Assembly: GCF_037975245.1 (NCBI RefSeq)
Contig: NC_092576.1
Coordinates: forward strand, 3,851,001 to 3,915,000
Direction: 5' to 3'
Length of the DNA: 64,000 bases
From: Apostichopus japonicus
Lineage: Eukaryota > Echinodermata > Holothuroidea > Aspidochirotida > Stichopodidae
Shown: piece after piece, positions 4,601 through 60,620 of the stretch
Numbering within the stretch: position 1 is the stretch's first letter
Layout: each line of letters begins with the position of its first letter
Translations under genes and position numbers: made by a program
Notes under the pieces: generated by a model
Seen by the model: the letters and a program-made list of their open reading frames with translations, nothing else
Database searches by the model: none
Told to the model about the DNA's origin: nothing

Positions 4601-5675
4601 ACGCTGGATTATACGAAATGCTACCTAATTAAACCAACAACCGGAGACCTGCAACGGCGACTCAGCATGCTATCGAACTGTTTTATTCTCAAACTATCAA
4701 TCTTTGCATAATGTTGCTAGTGGTAAATCTCCCACACATGTGATCTGTGATAGATAGGAGACTTTACAGAATGTGCTGAAATATCCACATTAATAAGATC
4801 TGATATCACCCAAAAAGCACTAAGTGGTTTTAATTAAACTCACACAAACACGCCGACACACGGTCAGACCCACACCCACACTATGATAATGATCTAAGAT
4901 CTCTATCTATGTTTAAAGGTAAGGGACATTAAATTCATGTAAAAACACTCGATTATATCTAAGTCCTATAGCCGAAATGCCAGAATGTAGGCTTTATATA
5001 CTCTCCCAGAACCTCCCGTATACTGAAGCTCACCCCTAGTATCTCAACATTGGGATTACTCAGCATACTTTATTCTTCCTTAGGCGGAGTGTAGAGTCTT
5101 AGCTTAATTAAACCAAGAACACACACACGGCTTTGCTATTCTGTAGCCAACATAATTAGAAATGTTGCACTAACATATGTTAGAGTCCGCCGTCCGTATA
5201 ACACGCATTTCTAGTGTTTGTTTGTATTCCCCCGTCAGTAACATGCTGACAGCACAGGCTGTATTTATACAGTTAGTCTAAAGTAACTATAGACGCCTTG
5301 AGGGAATCATGGGTCATTGTCAACATAGAAAGAGAGTCATCAGCTATCGGGAATCGACAGCCTGGTATATATCATGTGTTGATTAGTCATATAGTCTGTC
5401 TGTATATTCTCGTTTGAATCCTATTGAATCCTATAGATCACCGCACTTTGCCTGTATTCAGTCGTTTTACTCTATAGGCAATCATTCCAACCAGCTGACT
5501 GTGGTGACAGAGGTTTCCTCTTCCGCCGAACAAGTTTGTAACGTGATGAAAGTCAGGCAAGATGAGTAATATATATATATATATATGTTTTTATCAGAAC
5601 GTATTTCCGCAGTCGCAGCTAGTTATAACAGAACCTATATAGATAGACGCATTTCTACTGTAGGTTGATTATGCT
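1613..5675. other. Long non-coding interval
   Basis: About 4 kb of AT-rich sequence with no convincing coding region. It contains C-rich runs at 2450-2480 and 2600-2645, a G-rich run of aggggagtggggg type at 2755-2810, another at 3897-3920 (gggaagggggtggggggg), and a short (TA)n at 5570-5586. The TAGGCCTA palindrome occurs at 2028-2035. The short ORFs here have no recognisable composition. Confidence 0.6.
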
Positions 5676-5985: not shown

Positions 5986-7902
5986 AGGGATATATTAGTG
6001 AGACACATGCCGGTTTAGCCTTGGAGAGGAAGTTAGTATATGCGATGTTATTTCATGCTAGAGTGACTTCACAGTGACCGGGGGAACATTTATTAGTTTT
6101 GGCTGACGAAAGAGAAATATAATTCTATCGAGGATCATGAGGATATTATTATTATTCAATTCTTATTTAACATAGACAACATTTAAAACGTTTCGTACAA
6201 GAAGTGAACTTGGAGCGAACAGTTGTTATATCGCATAGAACTAGCACACAGTCTGGCCAGTGTAGTTTATGCCTGTCTTCTAAATTTAGATCCAGTTTTC
6301 TACAGTCCCAAATTTCTGATTCATTTCAGTATGAAATTATTAATACACTTCAGTCACATCCATACACATAATCAGTACATTCAAAACTCATGTTGCTTTC
6401 ATGATAAACTTCATCTTCGGTATTGCGTCATAGTGTTAACAAAAATTAAGAGCAAGCAGAAAACTTAACTAAAATTGACTTTACTTTACTTATTTGAAAG
6501 AAATACTGACATGTCCACCCATAACTGGATCGACGAAGACTAAAATAGTTCAGAATCGTATACAACAGGACACATGATACCAATGGTATAGTTTGTTGGG
6601 TTTAAATACTTTAGAATGATAAACAACAGGGCACATTAAATCAATGTATAGTTTGTTGTGTTTAAATAATGGGAGTGGAGGGGGGGGGGGGTAAATAATG
6701 AAGATAGTTGTTGACTTTCGCGGAACAGATAGCTTAAGCGGAAGTAGAGATGGATATATATACACCTACATATGGTTTCTTTCCAGTGTCAGTAAGCACT
6801 AGAGAAATTACAAGTGCGTGTTTCTGTATATGCAAACTGCTACAAACCGGTTAAAATCAGAACTTTCAGTAGATTCGTTCGCTTCTACATCTCGAGGTTT
6901 CTGAGATAGATCACTGCCATAACCATACTAAACGTTCAGCGCTTATTAGCTCTCAGGCTGAGATAAATCACGACCATAGCCATGCTGAACGATCAGAGCT
7001 TATTAGCTCTCAAGCTGAGATACCTTATAGGATGATAAATGTACCACACGGGAAGATTTAAGAAGATCAAGGCCAATATGGAAGGCCAACTAGAAACTGA
7101 GTTCTCTATAGAGAATGAACTATATTTGAAAATATCACATTATCAATTCCATGTTGAGGATACTGCACATGAGCGTACTCAAGTAATGGTATATATGTGA
7201 ATTAAAAATGAACAAAATAAAGAAGAAAAATAATAAAAAGGAAAATTGACTAATACTATAAAGACCACATTATGGTGTGCCAACACCCCAACCCCCTCTT
7301 ACCACAAAATAATAATAACCATAAAAACAAGAAAAACTAAGAAAACAAGCTCTACTTTTCATCTGTTTTTATGGATGTACATGGGGGTAAACATTATTCT
7401 CGTGAACTTTGCGGGGGACTCATATTAACCCTGTTAAATATGTACACATATTATGTTGATCTCTAGGTGTGAGGTATATGAGCCATCATATTAAACAATA
7501 TCCCTAACCACCCTCCTCCCTATAAGCGAGTTTAACTTGGTTCTGTCTAGAATCGTGAGCTTGACTATAACACTTGGCAACCTTCATGCATGCTTTAACG
7601 GATTGACTGGATTAAGTTGTTGACAGCCTATAAAATGAAAACTTGAAAGCGATATTTTGGTTGATTGATCATACTTGATGGGATCAGGGATCTGTTATCA
7701 ACAACCACCCCACCCCCACCTTCCCTGCTGTCTTCTCCACCAACATTCCCCACCCCAACCAAACATCTCCTTCAAAGGAAACAAAATTAGTTCAGCAATT
7801 ATTATAGCTTTTACTTGTATTGTTGCCAGCAATTTAACTGAAGGTCGACGCAACTTACCACTTTTAACTGTCTGAAGAGACAAACTGTTTTCTAACTTCC
7901 TT
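5986..7902. other. Non-coding interval with two short direct duplications
   Basis: About 1.9 kb without a credible gene. A ~62-bp direct duplication lies at 6546-6669 (shared tatagtttgttg then gtttaaata). A 57-bp duplication lies at 6901-7022, with the unit starting ctgagata at 6901, 6958 and 7015. Homopolymer G runs occur at 6675-6691. The 7675-7875 stretch is C-rich and open in both strands, which suggests base composition and not a gene. Confidence 0.6.
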
Positions 7903-17340: not shown

Positions 17341-18335
17341 ATTCGGAGCTTCCTGTTCATAACGGAGCTGCATGTTCTCATAGGCACAGCTCCGTGTTTA
17401 TAGCGCAGCGGAGGGTATAGCCTAGTGGTTAACGCCGGCGTCTCCCAGTCATGAGATCCCCGGTTCGATTACCCGCCGACAGCAATGTGTGTCGTCTGGC
17501 AAGGGTGTTGTTCAATAACAACTTCCTGACATGGACGTTAAATGGATGTGTTCCGAGAGATTGGCTTCGGTCAGCTTGCGAGTCTACAAGCCTCCATGGC
17601 TTCTTTCGCGAGTCCCTGCTTGCGGGAAGATCACATATACATACATACATTATGGGCCTTATCTCAGAGGCGCATGCTCCGTGTTTATTCAGGGCCGTAC
17701 CTCAGAGGCGCAGCCTCGTGTTTATTCAGGGACATACCTCGGAGGAAAAGCTCCATGTTTATTCAGGGCCTTACCTCGCAGGCGCAGCTCCGTGTTTATT
17801 CAGGGCCTTATCTCAGAGGCGCATGCTCCGTGGTTATTCAGGGCCGTACCTCAGAGGCGCAGCCTCGTGCTTATTCAGGGACATACCTCGGAGGCACAGG
17901 CACAGCCCCGTGTTAATACAGGGCCTTGCCTCGGAGGCGCAGCTTCGTGTTTATTCTGGGCCGTACCTCAGAGGCGCAGCTCCGTGTTTATTCAGGGCCT
18001 TACCTCGGAGGCGCAGCTCCGTGTTTATTCTGGGCCTTACCATGAAGGCGCAGCCCCGTGTATATTATGGGCCTTACCCCGGAGGCGCAGCTCCGTGTTT
18101 ATTATGGGCCTTATACCTCAGAGGCAAAGCTCCGTGTTTATTATAGGCCTTACCTCGGAGGCACAACCCCGTGTTAATACAGGGCCTTACCTCAGAGGCG
18201 CAGCTCCGTGTTTATTATGGGCCTTACCTCAGAGGCGCAGCTCCGTGTTTATTCAGGGCCGTACCTCAGAGGCAAAGCTCCGTGTTTATTATGGGCCTTA
18301 CCTCGGAGGGGCAGCCCCGTGTTAATACAGGGCCG
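17341..18335. repeat. ~38-bp minisatellite interrupted by a SINE
   Basis: Tandem units of the type gggcc[t/g]tacctcagaggcg, cagctccgtgtttatt, ca/at. About 16-18 imperfect copies lie at 17653-18335, and one or two diverged units lie before the SINE at 17341-17408. Two overlapping open frames of 231 and 264 codons run through the array because the unit lacks stops in those frames. They have repeat composition and no protein-like features. Confidence 0.9.
17409..17652 (+). mobile_element. tRNA-derived SINE inserted in the minisatellite
   Basis: The A box is tagcctagtggttaacg (from 17418) and the B box is ggttcgattacc (17462-17473), at normal tRNA spacing. A body of about 160 bp follows, and the 3' tail is (CATA)n, catatacatacatacatt. 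Minisatellite-like sequence lies on both sides, so the SINE inserted into the array or the array grew around it. A relic with the same A-box wording lies near 55840. Confidence 0.8.
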
Positions 18336-36741: not shown

Positions 36742-37875
36742 TTATCTTGGTTGAGGCTTTGTCCTTTGCTTCAACGACCCAGAATTTTGTCTATGATAGC
36801 CAAACATCTCTTGTCTCGCGAGCCATTGTTGGACAAGTGCGGTGGAGGACAACTGAGGACATCCGACCTCGGGATATAGCGGAGGAGAGTCCGCGTGTCG
36901 TGGGTAGTGATGGGCCCTCTCATAAATCTCTAGATCAGATAGCAAACTTATTCTAGACTCAGATGGGCTGGAGACACGTATAGACTGTAGGGATACGTGA
37001 CTAGGGCAGCGTAGCTCTTGAATGGTAGGATGCAGAGGGGAGCCACCGTCCCTTAGATCACTACAGCTACGGCTAAGCTGGAAAGCGGGTGTCTTCTCCG
37101 CGAACGGAGAGAGGTTACTTTGTCCGCGGGCACCTTTCGATGTTGGACTACGTTGCCGATGGTCCCTATCGTTTAATGATGTTCTAAGGTTACAACAAGA
37201 ACTACCTAAGTTAGATATTCCATCAGCCGGCTGTGGTTTACCGCCCTCTCTGTACCTCCTACGGCTGTCTATTCCAACTAGAGAGAGCGGCCGTTTCTTG
37301 CGTATATTTTCTTGGTATGATCTTTTAGATAGTTCGCTTCTCGCCGACGACCCGTTACTATCGGTCGGAGAGTCGTCCATAGCGTTGTCAAACTTCTGCA
37401 CAGCTTCCTCGTATGAATCATTACCTCCTGCAGATAAAGCATAGTTCTTCTTACGATAAAATCTCGGCGAGCAGTAGACACCTAACCTCGCGTCGTTTTC
37501 TCTCATTTGTTTCTCCCTCGAACGGTAGTCTAAGATTGCATCCGTCGACGTTTCCATTTTGTTTCTACTACTACTACTACCTCCTTCCTCGCCCATAATC
37601 TCAGAGGCTACTAACGGAGCACTGGGAAATTTCACAGACTCGTTTATGAGCGGTACTTTTAAGACTCTCGTCATATCAGAGGAGCTTCTTTCCCTAATTC
37701 CTCCCCTTGATCTTCCGTCACCGCCGCTGCTACTACCGCCGACGCCGTAACCGAGCCTGTCGTCGTCGTCAAAGTCGAAGTCGTCATCATTACCAACCTC
37801 ATTAAACGAGACAGAGTCTGTTTGTTTTCTAACTTCCTGTGTACCGCTCGTTCTACTGTATGGCCGATTAGACAT
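36742..37875 (-). CDS. Hypothetical disordered Ser/Arg/Asp-rich protein
   Basis: Unbroken 377-codon ORF from ATG to stop on the minus strand, in a region where long frames are otherwise only repeat-derived. GC content and codon variety are higher than in the neighbouring DNA, so it is probably coding. I do not recognise the family. Visible features: an acidic stretch at residues 29-39 (NDDDFDFDDDD), Gly/Ser-rich runs at 46-60, SSSS at 100-103, a basic KKRP at 193-196 that could be a nuclear signal, Ser-rich patches with two related segments (SSCCNLRTS near 225 and SRSCSDLRD near 268), a PPLY motif at 331-334 that matches the WW-domain ligand PPxY, and a final helical-looking LVQQWLARQEMFG (348-359 region). 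There is no signal peptide or membrane segment. It could be a single-exon gene or one large exon of a longer gene. The start has a G at -3. Confidence 0.6.
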   Translation of the reverse strand: MSNRPYSRTSGTQEVRKQTDSVSFNEVGNDDDFDFDDDDRLGYGVGGSSSGGDGRSRGGIRERSSSDMTRVLKVPLINESVKFPSAPLVASEIMGEEGGSSSSRNKMETSTDAILDYRSREKQMRENDARLGVYCSPRFYRKKNYALSAGGNDSYEEAVQKFDNAMDDSPTDSNGSSARSELSKRSYQENIRKKRPLSLVGIDSRRRYREGGKPQPADGISNLGSSCCNLRTSLNDRDHRQRSPTSKGARGQSNLSPFAEKTPAFQLSRSCSDLRDGGSPLHPTIQELRCPSHVSLQSIRVSSPSESRISLLSDLEIYERAHHYPRHADSPPLYPEVGCPQLSSTALVQQWLARQEMFGYHRQNSGSLKQRTKPQPR

Positions 37876-38946
37876 ATCTCTCGATTATAACAAGTCAAAT
37901 CCCATTAGAGCATACTTTAATCGGACATAAAACTATTACCATTTCCAACTGAAACTTCCTTTACGAATAAACATGTGTATAAGAAACAACGATAAAGATG
38001 TTATGTGTGTGTGTATGTCGTTGAGGGAGAACCAGCTAATCTCGCATGTAAAATCCTTACACTATATAAGGTATAGATGATTTCGCTACCGAGCTAAGAA
38101 CAAACCACCAACAGGATATTCAAAATAGCATTAACATTCAGCGCAACAACGTATAGGGAAAGGGTGAAAAAGTCAGTTTTAGAGGCGGAAGCTTTACGAT
38201 CTAGTTAGATATGAGTGACCTGTGGAATCAATGGTAAAACTCCAGAGGGAATAATCTAGAAGATATATCAATAGCAAGACTAACTGTCTTCATTATGTTA
38301 AGTTGTGTCGTTTGTTTTAGCACTAATTGTAATAAGCAAGATAGACGAGGATGCAAAATTTGACACTATCGACGCAGGAGTGACCTTCACTCTGTAGTTA
38401 TTAGTAAACTTTAGCTGTTAAGTACCTCAGGTTTGCTTTTCTTATTATTAATACCTGACCAAATATGACTGTTAAAATGAAAAGGTTTTAAATTGCGTTT
38501 ATCAAAATACTAAAGTAAATTCCAGTCATTCCCATTACGAGTTAGGTGAAAAAGAAGGCGAGGAAAGGATAAGATTAAAAAGATAGTAAACATACAGAGA
38601 GAGGTAGGGGTGGAGAGAGGGAGAGGGAGAAAGAGAAGTACCCTAGTTATTATGAATGGTAGAATGAAACAGCGAAATTAAATATGGGATTGTTTATGCT
38701 GCTTGTAAAGTACGCGGCGTGTTGTACTTCACAGTTTAGGAGAAATTAATTTCAAACTGTTTGACCCTTGAATAAAACAGGAACTAATAATTAATGAATG
38801 TGATCTTTGGGATCATCCAAAATAGGTCAAAGGTGTCTAACAAATAGGGTTAAATAGTCTCGGAGTTTATTAAGGGTGAGAATGCAGAGTGGACGGGCGG
38901 GGATGGGGTGAGTTGGGTGTGTGGTCAGCGTGGACGGACGTGAAAA
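37876..38946. other. Non-coding interval upstream of the 377-codon ORF
   Basis: No gene seen. It is the likely 5' flank of the minus-strand ORF. A purine-rich gagagaggtaggggtggagag tract lies at 38598-38635. Confidence 0.5.
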
Positions 38947-39155: not shown

Positions 39156-40524
39156 TATACCATAACTTTCCCAATAGTGGTAACTGTGTCATAATACATC
39201 ATCCACAAATATTGCCATTGACGATGAAAAGTTTGAATAATACGAAACTATGATGTGATACTTCCTTGTGACGATACACACATCTCGAAAGCATGAGAAT
39301 CTTTAAAGAAACTTCCACGCTCGACAATTGTCGTAGAAGAATTGAGAACATACAGTATAGTATGATATATGCTAAGTTATCCTTATTAGTGATTTAACGG
39401 ATACTAGAAATTATTTCTAACCCCATATATATAACTGTGACAAGTGCATCTGTCTGGAGCATTCACCTACACACAGAGGGTGTGACTCGTTTAGTTATTG
39501 TATAAATAATATTGTGCTATTGACCATGAGAAGCTATTACGTGATAACTCAATGTACAGACAAACATGTCATGGTGAGAAACAACTCTAATAGTTTATCA
39601 GCGGGAGAAGCATTATTAGTAGGTTCAATGTTATTGCCATGCACCCAATAAACATCATTGTTAGTATACAGTATAATTGTAATTATTATATGAATGAGGA
39701 ATCAATGATATTAGCATATGATACAAATCAATATGATATTACAATAACACAGTTACTAGTTCATTCAACGGCTGATGGTATAAATAGATTGATAACATCA
39801 GTGTAATATAATATACATAATATCGATGAAATTAATGTTATCTTATTGTTGATTTCTTACTTATTATGATGAGATAACATTAAATGATGAGTCGTGACAC
39901 ATCGGGTGTGGCAATGCGCTCTTCTGAAAATTAGAGGGAGACATTTCAATTTTCTTGCTACGAACTCTCGTTGTCTCTAACCAAATTCATTTCCAGTTCT
40001 TGTTTTCGGTCTAATAGCGTGCACCAAACTAGTTGATCGTCCAAACGTGACGTGTCCAACACCAAAGCATATACGATTCCATGAATTAATCAGTTTATCT
40101 ACAATTTCCTTGTACCAGTGACGTCACGTATTGTCTTATCATGAGCCATGTGAGCTTATTGTGAGCAGTGGAATTATCAGTTTACTTTCAGCAGTGACGT
40201 CACGTATTGTGTTATTGTGAGCCATGTGAACTTATTGTGAGCAGTGGGATTAGGAATTTACTTCCGCCACTGTCATTATGTAATATATATTATAATCCCA
40301 TGCGACTACAATTATTTCTCAAAGCGGTCTGGGGGTGGTAGGGGGTGGATGAGGGTGTTGGGGAGGTAAATATACATGAAAGGAATTTCTATGGATCCCA
40401 ACAGTTTGGGCCTACTTCAGATGGGCAAAATGCGGCTGGGCAGTTCTTCTACTCCTTACCAGAAAGCCGTGGCATATTCTCTTTAAAAAAATGCTCAGAG
40501 CGGGGTAAACAATTATAACTGTCT
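39156..40524. other. Non-coding interval with a 76-bp direct duplication
   Basis: No gene. A 76-bp unit starting cagtgacgtcacgtattgt at 40116 is repeated at 40192 and includes tgagccatgtga and attgtgagcagtgg. Each copy has a TGACGTCA site. Confidence 0.55.
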
Positions 40525-40537
40525 GTTGGGGATACAA

Positions 40538-40770
40538 CTGAATGCCAAAAAAGAGGCATAAGATGGACCCTCTTTTCTACACTTGAGGACCTCGACTTTG
40601 CAGATGATCTTGCTCTACTTTCACACACCCATCAGCATATGCAAGAAAAAACATCCAGACTCAGTGTTTTTGCCCAGCAAATTGGCTTGAACATCAGCCA
40701 AAAGAAAACAGAGGTGATGACCCTGAACATCTCAGACCCTTTACCAATACAAGCAAACGGGGAAGACCTA
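40538..40770 (+). pseudogene. LINE reverse transcriptase fragment (FADD catalytic box)
   Basis: In the frame containing TECQKRGIRWTLF the segment continues with LEDLDFADDLALLSHTHQ, the conserved FADD/YADD catalytic block of non-LTR reverse transcriptases, then GLNISQKKTEVMTL. It ends in GEDL at the TA where the 7.1-kb transposon is inserted. The frame resumes with PITEEFTYLGS at 47871. It is a fragment with no start codon and no N-terminal endonuclease, so it is not functional. Confidence 0.9.
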
Positions 40771-41279
40771 CACTGTAAATTTTAATTAGTCATATACACA
40801 TGCCAAAATGGTCAAATGACTAATTTTGCATTAGTCAGAATGTTTGACTAATTTCATCAGTCATATGACTAATTAAAATGGCTAAAGACCAATGAAAGTT
40901 AGTCATTGTCCAAAATAGTGACGAAGCATAATTAGTCAATTGGGAATCACGAAATTTGATTTCAAAGCTTTATTTGTTATTTTTGGTCTTCAAGGTTTTT
41001 TGTTATTTACTTACAAACAACTTCCGCGCCACAATTTGGATGAATATTAAAAAATTGTTTATAAAATCACCAATAATTAAAAACCCAAGGAATAATGGAT
41101 ATGCTATATAACAATTTTCGGTTAAGTGTAAACTCTAAGACGTCATAAGAAAAATTTCCACAAATTTTTTTGGGAAATTGATAATTACTTATAGCAAAAA
41201 CTTAATTAGGTTAAGGCGATATTCCAGCACCTGTACTAAAACGTCTTAGTCATTTGACTAATTTAGAATTCACAAATGA

Positions 41280-41410
41280 CGTCAGATATACGTAGCCGCG
41301 AGTGCGCACTCTGCAGGCGCCAGGCCTCTAGCTCTCGATGATTCCGACGCCATATTTGATACTGCAGTAAGAAATTCTGGAGCCGAGAAATGTCTGCAAT
41401 CGCAAGGTGG
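41280..41410 (+). promoter_or_regulatory. CpG-rich segment, candidate promoter of the transposon's gene
   Basis: In an AT-rich element, 41280-41400 is rich in CpG (cgtagccgcgagtgcgcac, gattccgacgccat). It leads to a short ATG-containing stretch ending caatcgcaag before gtgggtg, which could be a first exon with its donor. It lies upstream of the coding-like exons at 42762-46574. Promoter function is inferred from composition and position only. Confidence 0.35.
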
Positions 41411-42761
41411 GTGTATCTTATAACTTTACTAAATTGTGATTTAATTGCAAGTTATTCTTTATTTAGTATTTTTAGAATAGATAGTTAAATTGATGACAAG
41501 TAAATTACCAGTTTTAGTTCTGCTTAGCAACAACGAACGTTCGTCGTTCTAGCCTAACGTTATGCCATATGCATGATATGTGCAGGATACCTCATACTCA
41601 TAGGCCTAACGTGATTCAATAGGCTATGATGTGCACAAAAATTTATCTTTGTTTATTTTTGTAAAGTTCATTCTCAGAACCATTAAATGTTAACCTGAGT
41701 AGGGCTTAGCTTATTTACTGTTCAAATCGATGAAATTGTCAGGCTGAAAGTAACGGTGAACAGCGTTATAACTACGGTGGTCGGCACTGGGCGGGCCCGA
41801 TTTTCGCCCACCACTCCGGATGAAAAACACTGCTTCCGACCGGCACTAATTTCACATAAAAAAACATGCTTAAAACGTAACTATTTGTGAATAAAAGTGT
41901 TACTTGCATTAATATATCCGTCCTTAATCGTGTTTTATTTGCAATTGTACAAGAATCGTGTTTTGCAAGGACAATTTTCCTGAATGTTTGAGATTTAAAA
42001 ATCTAAAAAAACTGAAACCAAATCACAATCTAACTTGTGTATACGTGCACATTAGCGTGAACCAGAGCCTAAACATACATGAAGGCTATAATCCTACTTA
42101 TGGAGAACAGGACCTACACTCTCTAGCTAGGTGGAAAAAAATCGGTTTGCTGTAGGGCAATTTTCGCACTCCGGCGGATCTGTACATTTTTTTAGCCAGC
42201 TAGATAGTAAACATCCCTTTTCATATCATGTATCACTGGATTGGGGGTTTACAGCATTTGGTCAAGTTTTCTCGAAAGGGTGTATGACAATAACGTTTCT
42301 GGAAAAGTTTGTCCAGTACACGTGTCATGATCATACCGGGGCTGAGCTATACAGCAGCTTGAAGGTCCTCTGCTTCATACACTGCAATACGATGTGGTGA
42401 ATTGAACTGAAACTGTTTCGCAAATAAGCTTGCATAAAATTTTCACCGAATAGTCACTTATATCTCTAACCCTATGGCAGCCTAACAACACACTAAGTCA
42501 ATGGGGGAAATCAAGCCTAACCATATGTTTATTCGCTGAACCTGTGACGCAGTAGGCTGGCACTAAAATTATCCATGGTTTAGAGGGCTGTACTACTATT
42601 ATGCAGATATTAACGTTACGGCCAATGGTCTTTGTAGTTAGCATATATGTGTGGCGTAGCTTAATTGTTTAGTTTGACTTTTGGTATGTCAACATGGGTT
42701 TTCTGTAGTTTTTGGAGGCATATTTTTAATGCAAATGGCTAATTCCCATTTTCAATTGTAG

Positions 42762-45700
42762 TTGCGTACCACTCGTTGAACAAGGCTAACAATGTACAAG
42801 GCGCAGGTAAAGGCTATACTTATGTGCTGTTTTTATCAGACTTTCGAGTAGCCCATTGTCACAATCATTGATAAGTGACTAAGAAATTTTACTTATGAGG
42901 TTTGATAACGAGGAAGATTTGCAAGAATTATATATAGTATTGACTCTCGGACATTTGGTAGTGGCGGATTTTAGAGTATAAGGCAATTGTATTAATGTTT
43001 AGAGGGAGATAAAATTGGACTATATTTCATTAAAAAATGCCAGATTTCTAGTTTCGAGTGAAATTCAATTAACCTATGCGAATTGTATCCATCGATATTT
43101 GGATTAGTCTCATTCTGTTGGTGTATGTAAGAAACAAAAAGTGAATTCATCAATCCCATTAACACATTTGAAAATCAAGGGCACTACGGTCAATGGCAGG
43201 TTGTTCCTACTAGGCAGAAACCGTACTGAGCCCTATATTTGTTATCCAAAATTTAAATTCTTTTAAAGTATTATACTTTTTTGGGTCAACTATGCTCTTT
43301 ATTCTTTTTTTGGCAATTGCACTTTTTATGCCAATTAAGATCTCTAGTGATGTCAAGAGTGAAGAATTCCTAAACACTTCCTGATAAATTTGAATTTGTT
43401 AGTGATTTTTCAGAATGCTGTTGGGTGTGATCATGTTGAGTGCCAAATCATGCCACAGTAATGACTGTTTCTGCCTTCATGATATTGTGGGGAAATGTCA
43501 ATGATGTAATGGCTTCAAATAAGAAGAAATTACATGACTGAACAGCATTGGCAATTTAGCACTCAGCCTGTGACACCCCAGAAATATTGAAATTTTAGCT
43601 GCTCCTGCACTAACACCCACTAGAAGTAACCTTTATATTCAACTGGATTTTTTCCCTCACAACCAATAATGTAAATATCAGTGAATGGTGTGCAAGTAGG
43701 TTTATTTGTCAAACCCTGAAATTGATATTTCTGTATATTTATTTCCAACAGGTAAGCAAAGAAGAGGGCATCCATGATTTGTTTATAGCTCCATGGTTGT
43801 AGGAAGGTCTTATGAAGTATGGAAAATCTGTACTACTTAAGGTGTGCCAGTCGATGAAGAGAAAGGATGAGGTCTTTTCCTGGGCAGTTGATGAGATGCA
43901 AGGGCAACGAGATGAGCAGAGTAAGAAGGGTACATTCCATTATTTGGTTATTTATTAATATTCAGTGAGGAAGTGTTGAATGACTTATCTCTTTGATTTA
44001 ATAGAGCCCAAGTCGGGAATGGTTTAAAGATTCAGGTAACATGGAATTAGAGGAGGGACTTAACCTTAGATGTAATGTTGCACAGTAAACCAGTATTTGA
44101 AAAAATATTGGTAATTACCAGTTCAAGCAAGGTACGATACCACAAAAATGAAAGGACCGAAGTACCATCAGTGGCTATACTTATGAAATAGTGTAACTGG
44201 TGATAGCATGTATTACACATACACTATATCACATAGTTCTGAAGACAAAGTAAAGTATGTTGCTTATTTATCTTTTTTTGGGAACCCAAGTATTTCTGTG
44301 AAAACACTGTATTATCGGGTACCATTTTTGTCAGTACAACTAGTACTTGTTTTCAACAGTACCATGCAATTTCACTCAGATGGGTTCATCAGCACGAAAG
44401 CAAGCATCAAATAGTGGATCCTAAATAATTGAAGCAGACATTTTGCCTGTCATGTTTATGACACACATGTTTATGATTGCTTGTGTGGTGCTTCCCGGGT
44501 CAGTACTAAAAAGGAATCCTGATCAATGAAGGGAGATTATTTTGCTGTCATTTTGTACAGGTTATATCAGCAGAGCTCTGACAAGGTTTATAATAGTTAC
44601 ATTGTTATGAATTGCAATAAAGTCCTGGTGAGAAGGAGCCATGTTATGAATTCGTATGAAGTCCACGAAGCGGCTATCCTGAGGTTTGTCCGATTTAACA
44701 AGAACACAAGGTGCTGCAGAACAATAAAGACGAAGCGTTATTCAGAAACATTAAAATTTCAATGTATAAGAGAAGTAACCGACTTTATGTGGGTATCATT
44801 GTCATTGTACACATCTAATTATAATTCTTATTTATTTTGTCAACAGATGCCACTGCTGTTGCTGCTGTGCTTGGTATTCCATTGCTGTTGAAGGAGAAAA
44901 TAAAAAGCTTCCTGATATTTGCTGATGAAAGTGTAAGGACATATTAACCCTTCAAGTCCCATGGGATCTTGTCATAATTGATTTGCAAGTGCACTTTTCA
45001 AAAAATTAAAACTAGACTTTACCAGTTCGCTACGTTACAGGACTGTTGGTGTCATTCGAAAGAGCTAATCTTTTTTCAGAAAATGACACTTTTTTATTGG
45101 GGGGGGGGATATTGAATACTGCCCTCCACCACACAAGGGCAGTCCGGACAAAGGGGGAAAAGTTCCCCTTTACAGTGTTGGATATATATATATATATATA
45201 TATATTTCACTTGGGAACAATGGCAGTTTTTTGACAAAATATGAATGAAAATTAGACAAAATTGGCATAAAATCCAACAAAGTTTGCTTGAAATTCTGAT
45301 GTAACCTCAAAAGCCAAAAAAGGGTCAAGTACCAAAAAATCGAAATTTTGAAAAACAAGTCTCTAGGATCAAGGGCATGTAGTGTGGGGGAAACTTCTGC
45401 CAGCCATGTTAAGTCCGCCATTCAGTGGGGTGGGGTGCTGGGGAACTGCATGAGGTTCTTGTTGTATTCGCCATTGTGTGCCCTTTTTCAACACAAAGTG
45501 CCCCTTTTGTGGGGATTTGTCCCCTGCCCTATTCCCATGTAGGCGTCCCTCTTTGTACATTCTTTTACCAAAAGAATATATGTGGATGCCTTTATGATCT
45601 GTAGATAGCTCCTAATGTTTTTATTAGTGATATATATGGTCAATTCCATTTAAACTTAGCATGGTGGCATTGGTATAAACATTTGCCATTTTAATTTGTT

Positions 45701-46955
45701 CAGATTAATTTTCATGAGTGGACAGGGACAGCAATGAATTTCCTACAAAACGCTTGTAAATCTCATGAGAAGTAATGTGATGGGTGTTAAACCAAAATTA
45801 ATAGCCAGTTTGAATTTCATCTTGAAAGCAAATGTTTTTTCATGGTATTTGGAAACAACAGTTGGCACTAACTGAAGGTGAAGAGTTGGTCTCTGAAAAT
45901 GTAGGCCATGTGATCATACCTTTGACGCATAAGGAACAGTTGTGCAAAAAATATGACCTGTAAAACTGTTCATAATCTAAGCACATTAGTATTATAATTC
46001 TCTTATCAATATATGTGTGGAGTGTATGGTTTTGGCAGATTGTTTTGTGATTTTATTGTTACTTTTGAATTGTCCAGGGTTAGTGTTAGAACTAATTTTT
46101 AACAGAGAAAACAAATTTTCCAAACTTAAATGCAGCTTGATTGGTTGGGATTTATTTTACTTGTCGTGAAACTGCATGCAGCTAGACAACAGCCATTTTG
46201 CTTAAAATCACACTTGAATGGGAATTTAAAAAAGTGGTGTAGAAAGCCAAATTATTTCAGGTTCAAGTAGGGTGACTAAAAGCCACATTGATACCAATAA
46301 TCACCTGTACCATACCATACCATGTAAAATATTATGGTGTATTTTCTTGCTTATAGAATGAAGACCCCAAGCCTCTACATCAGGGGAAATGGTGCCACTT
46401 ATGGAGAATCAACCTGCTTTACAATATTTGTTGATGGGGAAGAAGTTGGATCTTGCAGTCTGCTGATTTCGGATTTGTCTTCATACATTGCATCGTTTTA
46501 CGTTTTCGACTTAGCTTACCCCACTATTTGAAAGAAGACCATGGTATTCATTCAGAAAATCATCTTAAGCATTAATGACAATTTTAAGTTAGACCTTTCC
46601 ATTCTAAGTGTGTTGGAGAGGGTTAATCAAAACCTCTAGGTGTAAAAACAAGAATAGACCTCTGACTGTTGTCGTTTGTCTGCTGTTAAAACGAAATTAT
46701 CATACTTTTTAACTAGTTGATACTTAAAATGAAATTCATAATAAGATTTAAATATTTAGCCCTCTACATCAAGGGAAATGGTCCCACTTGTGCAGAATAA
46801 ACCCACTTTACAATATTTGATGGGGAAGAAGTTGGCTCTAGCAGTTGGTTGATTTCAGCTCTGTCAGCATACATAGCATCATACTATGTTTTCAACTTGG
46901 CTTATCCCACTGTTTGTAAGAAGACCATGGTCTTCATCCAGAAAATCATACAGTA
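42762..46955 (+). pseudogene. Decayed multi-exon gene carried by the transposon
   Basis: Four exon-like blocks with AG and GT borders and matching phases can be read: 42762-42806 (coding from ATG 42792), 43752-43920, 44847-44932 and 46357-about 46574. Joined in frame they give MYKAQ, VSKEEGIHDLFIAPWL, a TAG stop, EGLMKYGKSVLLKVCQ, then ATAVAAVLGIPLLLKEK and FLIFADES. The last block reads LYIRGNGATYGESTCF then a hydrophobic SSYIASFYVFDLAYP and, past a TGA, KKTMVFIQK. It needs a one-base shift from the previous exon. A second, diverged copy of the last exon lies at about 46760-46955 and has TGT where the first has TGA. From memory, the YVF-x-L-x-YP...FIQ ending resembles high-copy uncharacterised proteins in fish and invertebrate genomes. 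That link is unverified, and the function is unknown. Confidence 0.55.
46760..46955 (+). repeat. Tandem second copy of the transposon gene's last exon
   Basis: Closely matches 46366-46570 (ctctacatcaaggg, gatggggaagaagttgg, cagcatacatagcatcatac, aagaagaccatggtcttcat). It has its own TAA stop early and a 1-codon deletion (ttgatggggaa against tttgttgatggggaa). It keeps a Cys codon at the position where the upstream copy has a stop. Confidence 0.75.
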
Positions 46956-47870
46956 TTTTCTGGTCAACTTCACACTTGTTGTGTAGCAGTACATTTTAAA
47001 GCAAGGATTTGAGTCATGACATGACATGTTTTTAATAGAACTTTGACTTTTCAGTTCTTATTAAAATGTATTTGTCCATTATCTATGAGTGGACATACTG
47101 CTGTATAATTTTTATATCAATATATATATTGTATTTTCAATCCTCTGACACAATTTGGTGATTGGGACAGCCATTTGGGTGGGACCAACTTGTTTAAAAT
47201 ATATGCATCCCTTGAAACAGTTCTCTGAAAATATTGGCTTAATCTGACAAAGTTTTTTTTAATGATTGAACCATGGGAGAAATATCACCCCATTCTAGCT
47301 GTAACACTCCTATTGAGGCTTTTCATGTATGCTTTTCAAGATATGTTATAGCAATAAATGAGTCTGGTAAAATAAAGCCATGATTTCTGTATTTCTTATT
47401 CAAACATACCTTTTCAACCTTGCAATAGGATTTCCTTCATTTACCCCACAAGATTGCCCAATTTGTTTTTTTTTTTCTGGGAGGGGGGGGGGGAGGGGGT
47501 CGGATTGTATTAGCAACAGCCAGCAGGAACCCTGAGTGAAACTTACAGATTTTATGCACACGAAGATCTCCACACAAACTGGAGGCCAAAAACATCCGCT
47601 AAAGTGAAATCAAAATCGTGATGGATGGCGCATTAGTCTAATGACTAATGAATAACAGGTCAAGTGCTGTGCAGGACTAATTTTGGAAGTCACCAGACTA
47701 AATGAATGGTCATATGACTACGATATATTAGTCACTTGACTAGTTTAGCTAATTAGTCATACGACTAATCTTTGCTGGTTAGTCATTTGACTAATTTTAA
47801 TTAGGCGTACGAAGCACTGTGCAGGACTAATTTTAATTAGTCAATTTGACTAACTTAGATTAACAGTGTA

Positions 47871-48481
47871 CCTATTACTGAGGAGTTCACTTACCTGGGC
47901 AGCACTGTCAGACACGATGGAGGTGCAGGCAAAGACATTAAGAACCGTCTTAATAAAGCCAGAAATGCATTCAGAATGCTCAATAATATATGGAGATCAC
48001 AGCAGTACAGCACCAAGGCCAAGCTAAAATTGTACCAGAGCTGCGTCCTTTCCACTCTTCTGTACGGCTCGGAATGCTGGAGAATGACGAAAGTCGACCT
48101 CAATAAGCTGTCAGTCTTCCACTCAAAGAGTCTAAGAAGAATATGTCGCATTTTCTGGCCAAACACCATTTCAAACGAAGCACTATATATGCCCAATGCC
48201 ATCAAGACAGCATGGAGAACATCATCATGAGAAGAAGGTGGAGATGGATCGGACATGTAATGAGAAAGAGCATGGATGACATCACACGAACAGCCCTCCA
48301 CTGGACACCAGAAGGCAAAAGAAAGAGGGGACGTCCTAAAAACACTTGGCGAAGAACTGTGCAAGGGGAGATTAAAGACCTGAACCACACATGGGGTTCC
48401 ATACAAAAATTAGCCCAGGATCGGAAGGAGTGGAAGACTTTTGTTGCTGCCCTATGTGCCAAGAGGCATAATGGGCAGTAA
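47871..48481 (+). pseudogene. LINE reverse transcriptase C-terminal fragment, frameshifted
   Basis: Starts PITEEFTYLGS, the conserved F-T-Y-L-G-S block after the RT palm. It continues through RLNKARNAFRMLNNIWRS, VLSTLLYGSECWRMTK and LRRICRIFWPNTISNEALY. A frameshift between about 48190 and 48225 then moves to the next frame, which carries RRRWRWIGHVMRKSM, GKRKRGRPKNTWRR and the stop after AKRHNGQ. These are the usual C-terminal blocks of invertebrate endonuclease-reverse transcriptases. The shift and the 5' truncation make it non-functional. ORFs on the minus strand here are shadows. Confidence 0.9.
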
Positions 48482-52900: not shown

Positions 52901-53806
52901 ACTTTAATACTCAATTTAGTATTTTAAGAAAATCTGAAGAAATATATTTGATCTGATTTTTTTTCTTCCAGTGTTTCAATAGTGAGGAGCTTTGGGATAT
53001 TTACGGCATCGAACATGAAATTGGAATGACTGAAAACGAATTCCAAGACCTGTGTCCATCTTTAATTCAGCAATTATTACGTCAACCATGTAACACAGAA
53101 GCTACAACTGACAGCCAGGATTTATCTGCTAAAGGTAATGATCATTTATGTACAATACAGCACACAGAGATGTTAACTTTACTATTGGAGTTTACAGACA
53201 AATGCTGCAAAGTTGTCATTTCTTTCTGTTTTTGTCTCGTTCATATTTTTAATATTCTATTTTAAATCATTGGCTGCTACATAGATCGAGCGCACATGTT
53301 ACGAACATATACAGCGCTGTGGAAGTATCTATCTATACCTCTTTAATAAATGTTTGGTCATAGGTCAACATATTCTTGACCACAACGCTTTGTTTTAGCT
53401 AAATTTTGATGATGCTGTTGTAACACGCATTGTGTTTGGAAATCTGTTGCTTACAGTTTACGTCTATATAACCGATCTCTCAAAAATTCTTTATCAGCAT
53501 AAATTTAATATCTACTCGTCAACATTACTTTTCACTTTCAATGCGCTAACTCACTTGTAATAATCTTCATTATTGAAACGACAGATAGAAGGTTGCATGA
53601 GTGAAATGTATTTTGTTTTCTTGCAGTTTGGATATATAGTTCCTTGTCGGTATTCATCATCAGCCTTGCCTCTATTTTAGGCGGTCTTCTGTTTCCGTGT
53701 CTTCCGTCAAAGTTTTACGAGAAATTTCTAAACTCTCTCATCTCGCTAGCCGTAGCGGTACTCGTAGGCGACGCTATTATTCATCTTCTGCCGTTGGTAA
53801 GCACAA

Positions 53807-53869
<63 letters not shown>

Positions 53870-54016
53870 ATATATCTATCTATATATCTATATATATATG
53901 TTTATCTAAACATAGATATATATCTATATATATATATCTAAATAAATATATATATGTATATATTTATATATATACATTAAATATACATACATAACTATAC
54001 TATATATATATATACA

Positions 54017-54095
<79 letters not shown>

Positions 54096-55314
54096 TTGAG
54101 GTCATTACCATTGACATATCTCCCTCTATTTCCATTCTTCACTGAAGGCCACCGGTTTGCATGGTCATGAAGAGGGCGTTGTTCACTCCCCACTAGACCC
54201 AGAATTAGCCTACCTTTGGAAGTCACTGGTCGCTGTCATAGCTGTTTACTTCTTCTACGTCTTTGAGACGTTGATTGGATCTTTTTCGGTGAGTTATTGT
54301 TCTTATGATTTAAATTGACGAAAATAATCGCTACGAACATATGATATTCATGCCAAGCTCGGTTCACAAAATTTAATATGCTCTCAATTCCACTGTTTTA
54401 TTTTCTACATTGTGTTTCGTTATCAGACAATGGCAGTAAATAATATGATTATTTTGTAAAGTTTAAGTATTTGACCATTATTAAACTCTTATCAACAGGG
54501 ACACGACCATTCACATAGCAGCAGTGATCATATAACGATGACCAGGAAAGCTGACCAGGAGAATGGTGTCATCCCTAAATCCTTTTCACAAACAGCGCTT
54601 GTAAGTTATTTATATCGTTTTCAAATAATGATACGTGTGGTTAATGTGCTTACAGAAGTTTGGTTTGTTTAAACCAAATTTCGCAAGTGTTACTTGCTTT
54701 ATGAACCTAGTAAATTGACTTTCTCGAGTGAACGACATAGTTTGTCACATCTACCTAACAAAGGAAGCATTTAATATGTTAAATATTAAATTCATATAAA
54801 TAATAAAATAAAAAATATAAATATAACGATACAAACGACTCACATACAGATTAATGTTAGAGCCTCCTATCGTGGTCAGCAGCTGTTAATTTCGAGAGTG
54901 ACAAATGCACAGGATTGGACAACCCATGTTAATCGTTTATTATCACACCTTATCCGAGGACGCCGTACGTGACTCACTCAGTGTCAGAAATGACCATGAG
55001 TTGCCCGTTTTGTTAAATTGTTTTACATTTTTTTTTTACATTTCTGGACAAGCAATTCCGCAAAAGTCCCGTTTGTATATATAGTATTTTAACTTTTTAT
55101 AAGTGGAACGAGTGCTCAGTTTGGTACATTATGTTATGTAATAACCATTATGCTTTCCCTACAGACGGATTACGTTGATTCATCCCCAGAAATTGTCACA
55201 GTGAAGAAACAGAACTTTCTTACAAGTAATGTACTGGTTTTACCCATTACATACATGACTGCCATGGTTTCATGTCAGAAATGAAAGTTGAACACAATAT
55301 ATAAATATATTTAT

Positions 55315-55364
<50 letters not shown>

Positions 55365-55579
55365 CTGAATGCTGACGTCATACCTTTGAGAACGTCACGT
55401 GATACAGGATAGCTGATATATATATATATATATATATATCCCGTATCACGTGACGTTCTCAAAGGAATGACGTTAGCACTCAGCTTATTTTCGTTTTGTA
55501 TGCATAAATCGTATCGGAGTCATTTATTAGCTCCGTTCTCATTAAGATCTATATGCACAATTGCATTACTAATGCAATA

Positions 55580-55640
<61 letters not shown>

Positions 55641-57715
55641 ACATTAATTGAACAGAGCTCTGTTTCATAAGTATCTTTGTCGAGATACGGTGGTTAGCAT
55701 CCTTATTGATCTCTATAGACTAAGGCTAAATGTGTCACGAATACAGGAATATCATTGGTCGATGAAGGTGGCAAAGCCTTTAGGGGAATAAAGACCTTCC
55801 TTGCTGGTTTCAAACCGCTGTGCAGACACTCAATTACCATAGCCTAGTGGTTAGAGTGTCCGCCTATAAGGCGGAAAGCCACGGCTTTATTTCCCGGTGG
55901 AGGGAGATATATGTATAGACAAGACGAAATATATAGGAATTACGAAGTCGTGTTTGCCCAGTGTCTTACATAATTTAGAACAAAGAAGCGGCTTGTTGTC
56001 CGCAGTAACTATTCAGTTCATCTATATATACAGATAGTAGGTTTGTTGGTACAAATCATTTATGTTGGTAAGACGACCTTATATATCACTAGTATGACAA
56101 CTCCTGGTGGAACTTGACATAAGTTATGATATGGTATCTGAAATTATAATGCAAACCTTACATATCGTATCATATTACATCATATCTGCATATTACATCA
56201 TATCTGAATCATATATAGTTCACAAAGTAAATATCTTATATATATAATAAATACCTTATATATTTGCTTCATTGAAGGGTACGGTCCTGTTCCAGTGATG
56301 ATTATTATGGGTGATCTCCTACACAACATGGGGGATGGTTTAGCCATCGGTGCTGCATTCACCGCTGGTCTAGGGCCTGGTATCTCAACATCTCTAGCAG
56401 TACTATGTCATGAGATCCCACACGAGTTAGGTAAGTGATCAAGCAATTAATTCCCCAATGTGACAATGATCTTGGCAGAGCCGATCCCATCTTGTATAAC
56501 GCCCCCACACCCCCCTTCCACCTCCTTTTAGTAACAAGTTATGGCTTGATCTGATGGGGGTTGCGTTGCCCACACTCATATCCCACAGCCAAGGGCTATT
56601 CTGCTACGGTCATAAGTCATAACGTTTGTTATAAGGTTCCATTGAGTCGAATTAATCCATTCATAGGTTGGACCTGATCTGAAAAGGAGCGTAAACTTAT
56701 TGTGTTTGACCACATGCGATAATGTTTGCAGGGTTTGGTGACGGTTGGTCCCTTCTGCCCCGATGTGTTTTATAATCTAATGTAGTTTTAGAATTGGTCA
56801 CGGATGTTTGTCGACTTTTTGGTATGACTGGTAAACTTGTAATAAACAATTGTAACTAGTGGATGATGGATCTTCATGGATCGTTCATCTATTAAAAACT
56901 GTTTGACGTTGCTAACAATAATTAACTATATTGACGGTTTCTCTTTAACAAAAGAAAATGATAAACTTGATTCTAATGTGAAATCAATAGTCTTGAATGA
57001 ACTGTTCGATGTTACAGGTTGAAAGCTGGTTCAATATTCTTCTTTTTTTTTCTGTTTTTATCATATTTATCTTTCAGGCGATCTAGGTCTTCTCCTGAAA
57101 TTAGGTATAAAGTTGAAATGGGCGCTACTTTTAAACTACTTGTCATCTATTTCCGCTTTTGTTGGTCTTTATATCGGTATCCTGCTGGGTCAGACTGAAG
57201 CGGCTAGGCAATGGATTTTTGCCATTACTGCTGGGATGTTCCTTTACGTAGCCCTGGCTGACATGGTAAGGATTTATCCATGTTTTTTTCCCCATCACTG
57301 ACGTCATGATATGATGTCATTTTGTGATAGGACGTTATGTTGTGAAATAGCACGGAAGTGTGGCACACACACTCACCCAGTATAACAATCTCGAGTACAT
57401 GTTACTGTTTATCTATTGCTCTATTTGCCGTAATTTATAAAAAAAAAAATTATACTATTGCAATATTACTGTAAATTATTTCAGGGAGTCCCAGGGTTGC
57501 TAATAGATAAAGAATCTGATAAAGAAAGAAGAAAGAAAGAAAGAAAGAAATATGTGTATTTTTTTCTTCTCACTTAGGTACCACAGATATCAAACATCAA
57601 AGAAGTGAAAGATCCATGGCTGACGTTTCTGCTTCAAAATGTATTTTTCTTATTCGGTCTTGCTTTTATCTTTGCGATGGCCCTGTATGAAGATGCAATT
57701 ACCGTATCTCTATAA
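49941..57715 (+). CDS. SLC39A12-like: ZIP family zinc transporter, LIV-1 subfamily (ZIP4/ZIP12-like), 12 exons
   Basis: Imports zinc into the cytosol across the plasma membrane. Exons: 49941-50246, 50579-50860, 51371-51578, 52482-52648, 52972-53134, 53627-53796, 54148-54288, 54499-54600, 55165-55225, 56278-56430, 57078-57265, 57578-57715. All borders are AG/GT and phases agree, giving 692 aa, close to human ZIP12 (about 690). The start is the ATG of [17 protein letters not shown], a signal peptide. The ectodomain has HEHEH (40-44), HEHEHVH (281-287) and Cys at the first codon of exons 2, 3 and 5. CPSLIQQ (349-355) stands where LIV-1 proteins have a PAL motif. Membrane segments begin near 377, 409 and 452. 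A His-rich loop [11 protein letters not shown] starts at 480. The metal site is [10 protein letters not shown] (from 549) and [12 protein letters not shown] (from 577). HEIPHE points to the ZIP4/12 group. The choice between ZIP4 and ZIP12 rests mainly on length. Confidence 0.92.
51546..51830 (+). repeat. 122-bp tandem triplication of the exon 3 end and splice donor
   Basis: Three copies start agtatggatc at 51546, 51668 and 51791. Each carries the end of exon 3 (ggatcgtcagtgaagaa), a gtatg donor and the following intron sequence. The exon model uses the first donor. Copies two and three lie in intron 3 and are slightly diverged. Confidence 0.9.
53811..54088. repeat. (TA)n tracts in intron 6 of the zinc transporter gene
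   Basis: Two TA tracts, about 53811-53867 and 54019-54087, with variant tatc/taaa/taca text between them. Both lie in the intron between exons 6 and 7. The open frames through them are artefacts. Confidence 0.95.
55324..55362. repeat. (TA)n microsatellite in intron 9
   Basis: Pure TA next to the left arm of the inverted repeat described at 55363-55485. Confidence 0.95.
55363..55485. repeat. 49-bp inverted repeat around a (TA)n loop, intron 9
   Basis: The left arm, 55363-55411 (agctgaatgctgacgtcata, cctttgagaacgtcacgtga, tacaggata), is matched by the right arm, 55437-55485, in reverse complement with only four mismatches. About 25 bp of agctga plus TA separates the arms. It could extrude a cruciform, or form a hairpin in the pre-mRNA. 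It may be a fold-back MITE. Confidence 0.9.
55580..55641. repeat. (TA)n microsatellite in intron 9
   Basis: TA run with one taca interruption, in the same intron as the inverted repeat. Confidence 0.95.
55840..55910 (+). mobile_element. Degenerate tRNA-like SINE head, intron 9
   Basis: A-box tagcctagtggttagag at 55840, a well-paired anticodon-like arm (tccgcctataaggcgga) and a damaged B box (ggctttatttccc where ggttcgattccc is expected). The A-box wording matches the SINE at 17409. It is unlikely to be a functional tRNA. Confidence 0.6.
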
Positions 57716-57776: not shown

Positions 57777-59995
<2,219 letters not shown>

Positions 59996-60620
59996 AACAT
60001 CTATTCGAAACCTTAGTTAGTCATGTCGTGGTAAAGGTAGCCAAGTGATATCTCTAGTAGATACTAAAATACGCCGCCGAGTGCTACCTAGTTCATTGAA
60101 CAGCTATTTGAAACCTTAGTTAGTCATGTCGTGGTAAAGGTAGCCAAGTGATATCTCTAGTAGATACTAAAATACGCCGCCGAGTGCTACCTAGTTTATT
60201 GAACAGCTATTTGAAAACTTAGTTAGTCATGCCGTGGTAAAGATAGCCAAGTGATATCTCTAGTAATAGACAGTAAAAGTACGCCGCCGAGTGCTTCCTG
60301 GTTTATTGAACAGCTATTTGAAAACTTAGTTAGTCATGCCGTGGTAAAGATAGCCAAGTGATATCTCTATTAAACAGTAAAGTACGTCACTGAGTGCTAC
60401 CTGGTTCATTGAACAGCTATTTGAAATCTTAGTTAGTCATGCCGTGGTAAAGGTAGCCAATTGATATCTCAAGTAGACAGTAAAGTACGCCACCGAGTGC
60501 TACCTAGTTTATTGAACAGCTATTTGAAAACTTAGTTAGTCATGCCGTGGTAAAGGTAGCCAAGTGATATCTCTAGTAGACAGTAAAGTACACTGCGGGT
60601 GCTATAACTAGTTCCTTGTA
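59996..60620. repeat. ~107-120 bp satellite, about six copies
   Basis: Units carry gaacagctatttgaaa, cttagttagtcatg[c/t]cgtgg, taaaggtagccaagtgatat and acgccgccgagtgctacct. Copies 1 and 2 are nearly identical; later ones differ by small indels. There is no coding potential. Confidence 0.9.

Follow-up and report, generated by a model that had tools for sequence, protein, structure and literature searches.

We have found that the window, a stretch of 64,000 nucleotides of Apostichopus japonicus DNA analysed here as a whole, contains a CACTA-like DNA transposon with the remnant of a multi-exon gene aboard, and that the five best-scoring diverged relatives of this gene elsewhere in the genome lie beside transposon ends of the same kind. 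We consider it likely that part of the gene family is transposon-borne and has become multicopy by way of CACTA-like elements, in at least two element families of this genome. Annotations of many animal genomes contain numerous, almost identical "uncharacterized" genes whose origin is unknown. In the present genome, some members of one such family sit inside DNA transposons belonging to two element families, one of them with a gene end that is still open; the transposon-borne copies offer a concrete and testable reason for copy number, and imply that some gene models can be mobile-element cargo. What appears to be new is the presence of this particular gene family on CACTA-like elements, host-type genes in such elements being already known from fungi.

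The element lies on the forward strand within the reverse transcriptase reading frame of a LINE, and its parts and immediate surroundings are the following.

40519-40770, + strand: 5' part of the reverse transcriptase frame of the host LINE (match to Pfam RVT_1 at E 6.5e-6, short of the curated threshold)
40769-40770, no strand: target site duplication TA, left copy
40771-47868, + strand: CACTA-like DNA transposon copy, CACTG...CAGTG, 7,098 bp, recognised by the frame of the empty site, the ends and the target site duplication
40771-41280, + strand: left terminal region with TTAGTCA subterminal repeats, nine of the element's 18
47601-47868, + strand: right terminal region with seven of the 18 TTAGTCA repeats, an imperfect inverted repeat of the left end
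47869-47870, no strand: target site duplication TA, right copy
47871-48481, + strand: 3' part of the host LINE ORF (Pfam DUF6451, E 8.5e-8; also read from the joined frame)

The TTAGTCA motif is concentrated in the two terminal regions, which hold 16 of its 18 occurrences (nine in the first 510 bp and seven in the last 268 bp). Once the element and one TA are removed, the reverse transcriptase frame of the LINE reads through the empty site without a shift (GEDL-PITEEFTYLGS) as far as a stop at about position 48228, beyond which reading continues in another frame. A preliminary description of this DNA had placed a gene remnant inside a transposon, and the terminal sequences, the target site duplication, the in-frame empty site and the subterminal repeats establish that the ends of this transposon are real.

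When the genome (671.6 Mb) was searched with the region of the last exon as query, matches at 93-100% were found at 26 places, the window included. Comparison of the 25 other places together with their flanks, in which the stretches span 45-100% of the element in the element copies, resolves the 26 into 22 element copies (again counting the window) and four fragments. Both ends are present in 15 copies, in every case as CACTG...CAGTG, and 14 of these 15 are bordered by equal 2-bp duplications (TA in 11, CA in two and TG in one); the copy that differs is L014, and one of the 11 TA duplications (at L030) sits inside a TA repeat. The window element is mobile as one piece, its ends being precise and its duplications 2 bp long. 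The four fragments (L012, L013, L017 and L018) all lie on C16 at 36.2-37.1 Mb and each amount to about 20% of the element, holding element positions 5424 to about 6817-6831 and stopping near the start of the right terminal region. They are segmental duplicates of one another, because they have long flanks in common. We considered these fragments as the source gene and rejected them in that role, as they have dead stops in common with the element copies and fall among those copies in a tree (25 of the 26 rows, with midpoint rooting only). At C7:911634-912153 there is a further left end (97%) belonging to the element family of the window; it has no last-exon match nearby and is possibly a deletion derivative. 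Two near-identical truncated copies (L031 and L032, about 16 kb apart on C8) lack the TGA found in one of the window's last exons.

The gene remnant inside the window element comprises the following blocks.

42762-42806, + strand: first exon-like block of the preliminary description, unsupported and rejected as an exon (wrong phase to the next block; no homologue found in the related loci L034 to L037, taken up below)
43752-43920, + strand: predicted second exon of the remnant (exon 2), interrupted in frame by a TAG (43800-43802) and with a provisional 5' border
44847-44932, + strand: exon 3, 86 nt, phase 2 in and 0 out, with a homologue of equal length and phases in L034
46357-46574, + strand: exon 4a (last exon), with a TGA at 46529-46531 and a one-base offset near its start
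46761-46952, + strand: exon 4b, a second, diverged copy of the last exon, with a TAA in 26 of 26 places

Four blocks had been described as splicing together in matching phases. The last three of them are present as claimed, as are the two stop codons (TAG and TGA) and the offset of one base, and the phases are consistent from block 2 to block 3 but one base off from block 3 to block 4 in the window. The splice chain is in any case a weak argument without a homologue, because a chain like blocks 2 and 3 arises in 60 of 300 dinucleotide shuffles. A duplication absent from the preliminary description provides a different kind of evidence: the last exon occurs twice in the window (46372-46566 and 46761-46952), and its two copies differ in 32 of 192 columns, with a likeness that ends sharply on both sides. 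In the predicted frame, 14.5 of the changes between them are synonymous versus 8.2 expected (P 0.0055), whereas none of the other five frames has a synonymous excess (P 0.27-0.86); dN/dS is 0.28 and dS is 0.42. This synonymous count replaced a count by codon position (10/9/13 between the exon copies) that was too weak alone. The frame-specific excess indicates that selection acted on the protein encoded by the last exon once its two copies had begun to diverge, and to judge from this pattern of substitution the last exon is genuinely coding and more than a product of chance. A 179-codon stretch of the host LINE, picked for being open, would have remained so with P <0.1 after at least 0.1 substitutions per site, a weak indication that exons 4a and 4b diverged before the element inserted at the window locus.

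More distant relatives were sought by a protein search of the genome with an unchanged piece (46801-46983) as query, in which 150 of 222 candidates were scored and 149 were matches. Among the scored matches, 93 diverged places lie outside element copies (a hand count), of which 13 have E <=1e-3; the others are weaker, though a good number form sets of equal score spread over several contigs, among them 16 at E 0.298, 12 at E 0.00282 and 8 at E 0.453. Identity to the query is 48-50% in the top five diverged homologues, in all of which the last exon is open, and 40% in the matches ranked sixth and seventh. Two homologous loci, L034 (on C12) and L035 (on C22), are 99% identical over 7.9 kb, and their likeness stops one base past ACAGTG, with TTAGTCA repeats ahead of it; the 2-bp right flank is TG on C12 and TA on C22. 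The right ends of the window and L034 families match at 35 of the last 44 bases, and the window and L034 elements have no DNA match at E 1e-10 over the part compared. The L034 element would span C12:2002968-2016460 (13.5 kb) if its two ends are paired as we infer, and the part of it that was read, L034:1-7964, lies beyond its first 5.5 kb. Exon 3 of L034 likewise measures 86 nt and has the phases of its window counterpart (tblastn E 1.2e-5, with this single 9.5-kb locus as the target), and the last exon of L034 matches window exon 4a with E 5e-15 and starts in phase 0. The candidate for L034 exon 2 is a weak match (score 36, reached by nine of 5000 shuffles and third of 230 ORFs) that ends with one base over, the same as window exon 2. 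Disagreement over exon borders had been named as grounds for abandoning the proposed gene structure; in the one homologue read for this comparison (L034), the borders agree for exon 3 and for the facing borders of both neighbours. A further pair of loci (L036 and L037, from a 12-copy set) have 3.4 kb in common, both starting exactly at CACTGTAAAAAATG, and no right end was recognised in the stretches of this pair that were compared.

The right end of L034 was found at 40 scored places among 65 candidates, at 96-100% identity, and its distribution links the best diverged gene matches to transposons. The four best diverged gene matches have an L034-family end 1.97 kb downstream and the fifth (C17:19318284) has an end 1.93 kb downstream, such that five out of five lie within 1.9-2.0 kb of ends of this kind on the same strand. 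A pattern describing these ends occurs at 125 places in the genome versus none for a backward control. That the five best homologues lie beside the same kind of end, in a second element family, puts this gene family on transposons of two families at the least. Proximity to ends was scored against the 40 scored ends and 100 of the 125 pattern places, reaching into C18; five of the 93 diverged gene places are within 15 kb of one of these ends, and the remaining 88, mostly weak matches that include ranks six and seven, have none of the listed ends within that distance. Because 100 of the 125 places are covered and the pattern is specific to two families, ends may still be present near some of these 88. 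The proposal that transposons explain the copy number of this gene thus finds support in this genome for two sets, the 22 copies of the window element and the five best homologues; for the 88 other matches, the ends listed give it none.

The gene had also been portrayed as either captured cargo or a long-term passenger, and it does ride in a DNA transposon, with one kept capture and two separate captures both still in play. According to the second of these, two related transposon families each picked up, independently, a host gene from one large family; the association is not a lasting one, and the other members of the gene family owe their numbers to other causes. Such a pair of accidents rivals a single kept capture and not the transposon-borne part of our interpretation, and we give it a little less than an even chance. 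It accords with the finding that only four of the 40 scored L034-family ends have a diverged gene match within 15 kb and the other 36 have none, from which it follows that the gene is not a fixed part of the L034 family; it accords equally with the 88 of 93 diverged matches that are free of listed ends within 15 kb, and with the lack of a DNA match between the window and L034 elements. Two independent captures would not, however, lead one to expect that the gene points the same way with respect to the ends in the two families, that the distance from the last exon to the right end is about 1-2 kb in each, or that the right ends are of one kind, although the sample here is two families only.

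In the interpretation that we prefer, the element in the window belongs to a CACTA-like (CMC-type) family that has no recognisable transposase and bears the 3' exons of a multi-exon gene, which would have been captured as genomic DNA, introns included. A CACTA-type transposase supplied from another locus would mobilise the elements in trans, and the gene would gain copies through transposition, dying in some element lineages, such as that of the window, and staying open, at least at its end, in others (L034 and L035). Decay in the window's family can be followed among its copies. The TAA of exon 4b is present in 26 of 26 places and the TGA of exon 4a in 24 of 26, the exceptions being L031 and L032, which have a sense codon in its place; the TAG of exon 2 occurs wherever its site is retained (21 places), in one of them with two extra bases. 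Copies also differ in how long the beginning of exon 4a is, and L031 and L032 have a version that is in phase with exon 3. Exon changes among copies (omitting L032 as a near duplicate) comprise 84 nonsynonymous, 33 synonymous and 12 stop changes versus 99, 36 and 8 expected. Stops common to nearly all copies, together with this near-neutral variation, show that the cargo was largely dead before the family spread; the gene piece of the window's family was largely broken by then and has drifted near-neutrally since. The drift is not perfectly neutral, because changes in exon 3 (five nonsynonymous versus a neutral count of 11.9) and exon 4b (23 nonsynonymous versus 32 expected) fall below the neutral count.

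These observations bear on another possibility, that the gene serves the transposon as one of its working parts, encoding an accessory protein that aids movement or helps the element to escape silencing. The last exon is open in five dispersed copies, and there is precedent in the TET/JBP genes that passages of one report place in fungal DNA transposons, EnSpm included (PMC12730594). A working part is nonetheless hard to square with a window family that reached 22 copies with a largely dead gene, and with the 36 of 40 scored L034-family ends that have no gene match nearby, and we think it unlikely. It is far less probable still that host segmental duplications or chance reading frames, instead of transposition, account for the data. 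The four C16 fragments are indeed segmental duplicates and blocks 2 and 3 alone are not beyond chance, but equal 2-bp duplications at 14 of 15 copies, an in-frame empty site and a frame-specific synonymous excess all speak against it.

Subterminal repeats are typical of CACTA/EnSpm elements. The CAC..GTG-type ends, found as CACTG...CAGTG in all 15 two-ended copies, fit the CACTA/EnSpm (CMC) class, as do the 2-bp target site duplications of 14 of these 15, the criterion for the class being 2-3 bp; duplications of CACTA-like elements are given as 2 bp in passages of one source (PMC1636069) and as 3 bp in passages of another (PMC12730594). No transposase was detected in the window element by Pfam at E up to 1 in six frames, or by Pfam in L034:1-7964. 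Because it has no transposase inside, we call the window element CACTA-like and non-autonomous, a designation under which EnSpm, Mirage and ESTA cannot be told apart. The genome has 20 places with a match to Transposase_21 (PF02992), 15 of them over the cut-off, versus none in 14 control genomes, and several of these places have open frames of 800-880 aa; none of the 20 is within 15 kb of the listed ends, and none lies in C12:2002968-2016460. A CACTA-type transposase thus appears, from these domain matches, to be available in the genome, and movement in trans is the likely mechanism.

Pfam and PDB searches with the gene pieces gave no match, and among viral contigs and separate genome contigs there were pattern matches to possible relatives, of which zero were confirmed. 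The passenger gene belongs to an uncharacterised family that may resemble SAMD3-like proteins. The joined exons score 63 against an approximate SAMD3 tail sequence, the best of 5000 shuffles scoring 57, and in the same comparison the two copies of the last exon rank first and second of 1153 window ORFs; identity to this approximate sequence is low, and exon 3 aligns only with long gaps. No SAM domain was matched by Pfam in the window element or in L034:1-7964, where a domain split by introns could escape. We treat the SAMD3-like resemblance as a lead and not as a test. It is tempting to extend our interpretation to the large family (the 93 diverged places), and perhaps to SAMD3-like families elsewhere, as owing their copy number to CACTA-like transposons, with a gene that may serve the transposon; we offer this extension tentatively and do not lean towards it.

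Our search of the literature found no report linking the SAMD3-like family to CACTA elements, and several known systems are similar in part. Passages on animal relatives of CACTA (Spongebob and the TRC elements) describe 2-bp duplications (PMC4298943, PMC1636069), and animal CACTA/EnSpm (CMC) elements have inverted ends and 2-bp duplications as in the window element; TRC elements are there given CCC ends, whereas the window element has CACTG ends, no transposase that we could find and a gene piece aboard. The fungal DNA transposons that carry TET/JBP genes, EnSpm included, are, as far as those passages go (PMC12730594), like the present case in that a host-type gene resides in CACTA-like elements and is passed among element families; they differ in the gene family involved, and here one element family has only a largely dead copy. 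The fish texim gene, which encodes an SGNH hydrolase and according to PMC4021074 is mobilised by Helitrons, is likewise a multicopy gene spread by a DNA transposon, but the carrier is a Helitron rather than a CACTA-like element and the gene is a different one.

Other features of the window lie outside the element. Seven TTAGTCA motifs at 59845-60536 (+ strand), mostly at a spacing of about 103 bases, are likely a tandem array and apparently not a transposon end. A long minisatellite-like stretch at 17433-18325 consists of a GLTSEAQLRVYSGPYLRG-type repeat and has several frames open. An open frame of 380 codons at 36742-37884 (- strand) has no Pfam match at E 0.01 and is perhaps a host exon. 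Lastly, exons of a ZIP zinc transporter gene (Pfam Zip and EF-hand_Zip) lie at 52957-57301 on the + strand, downstream of the LINE and the transposon.
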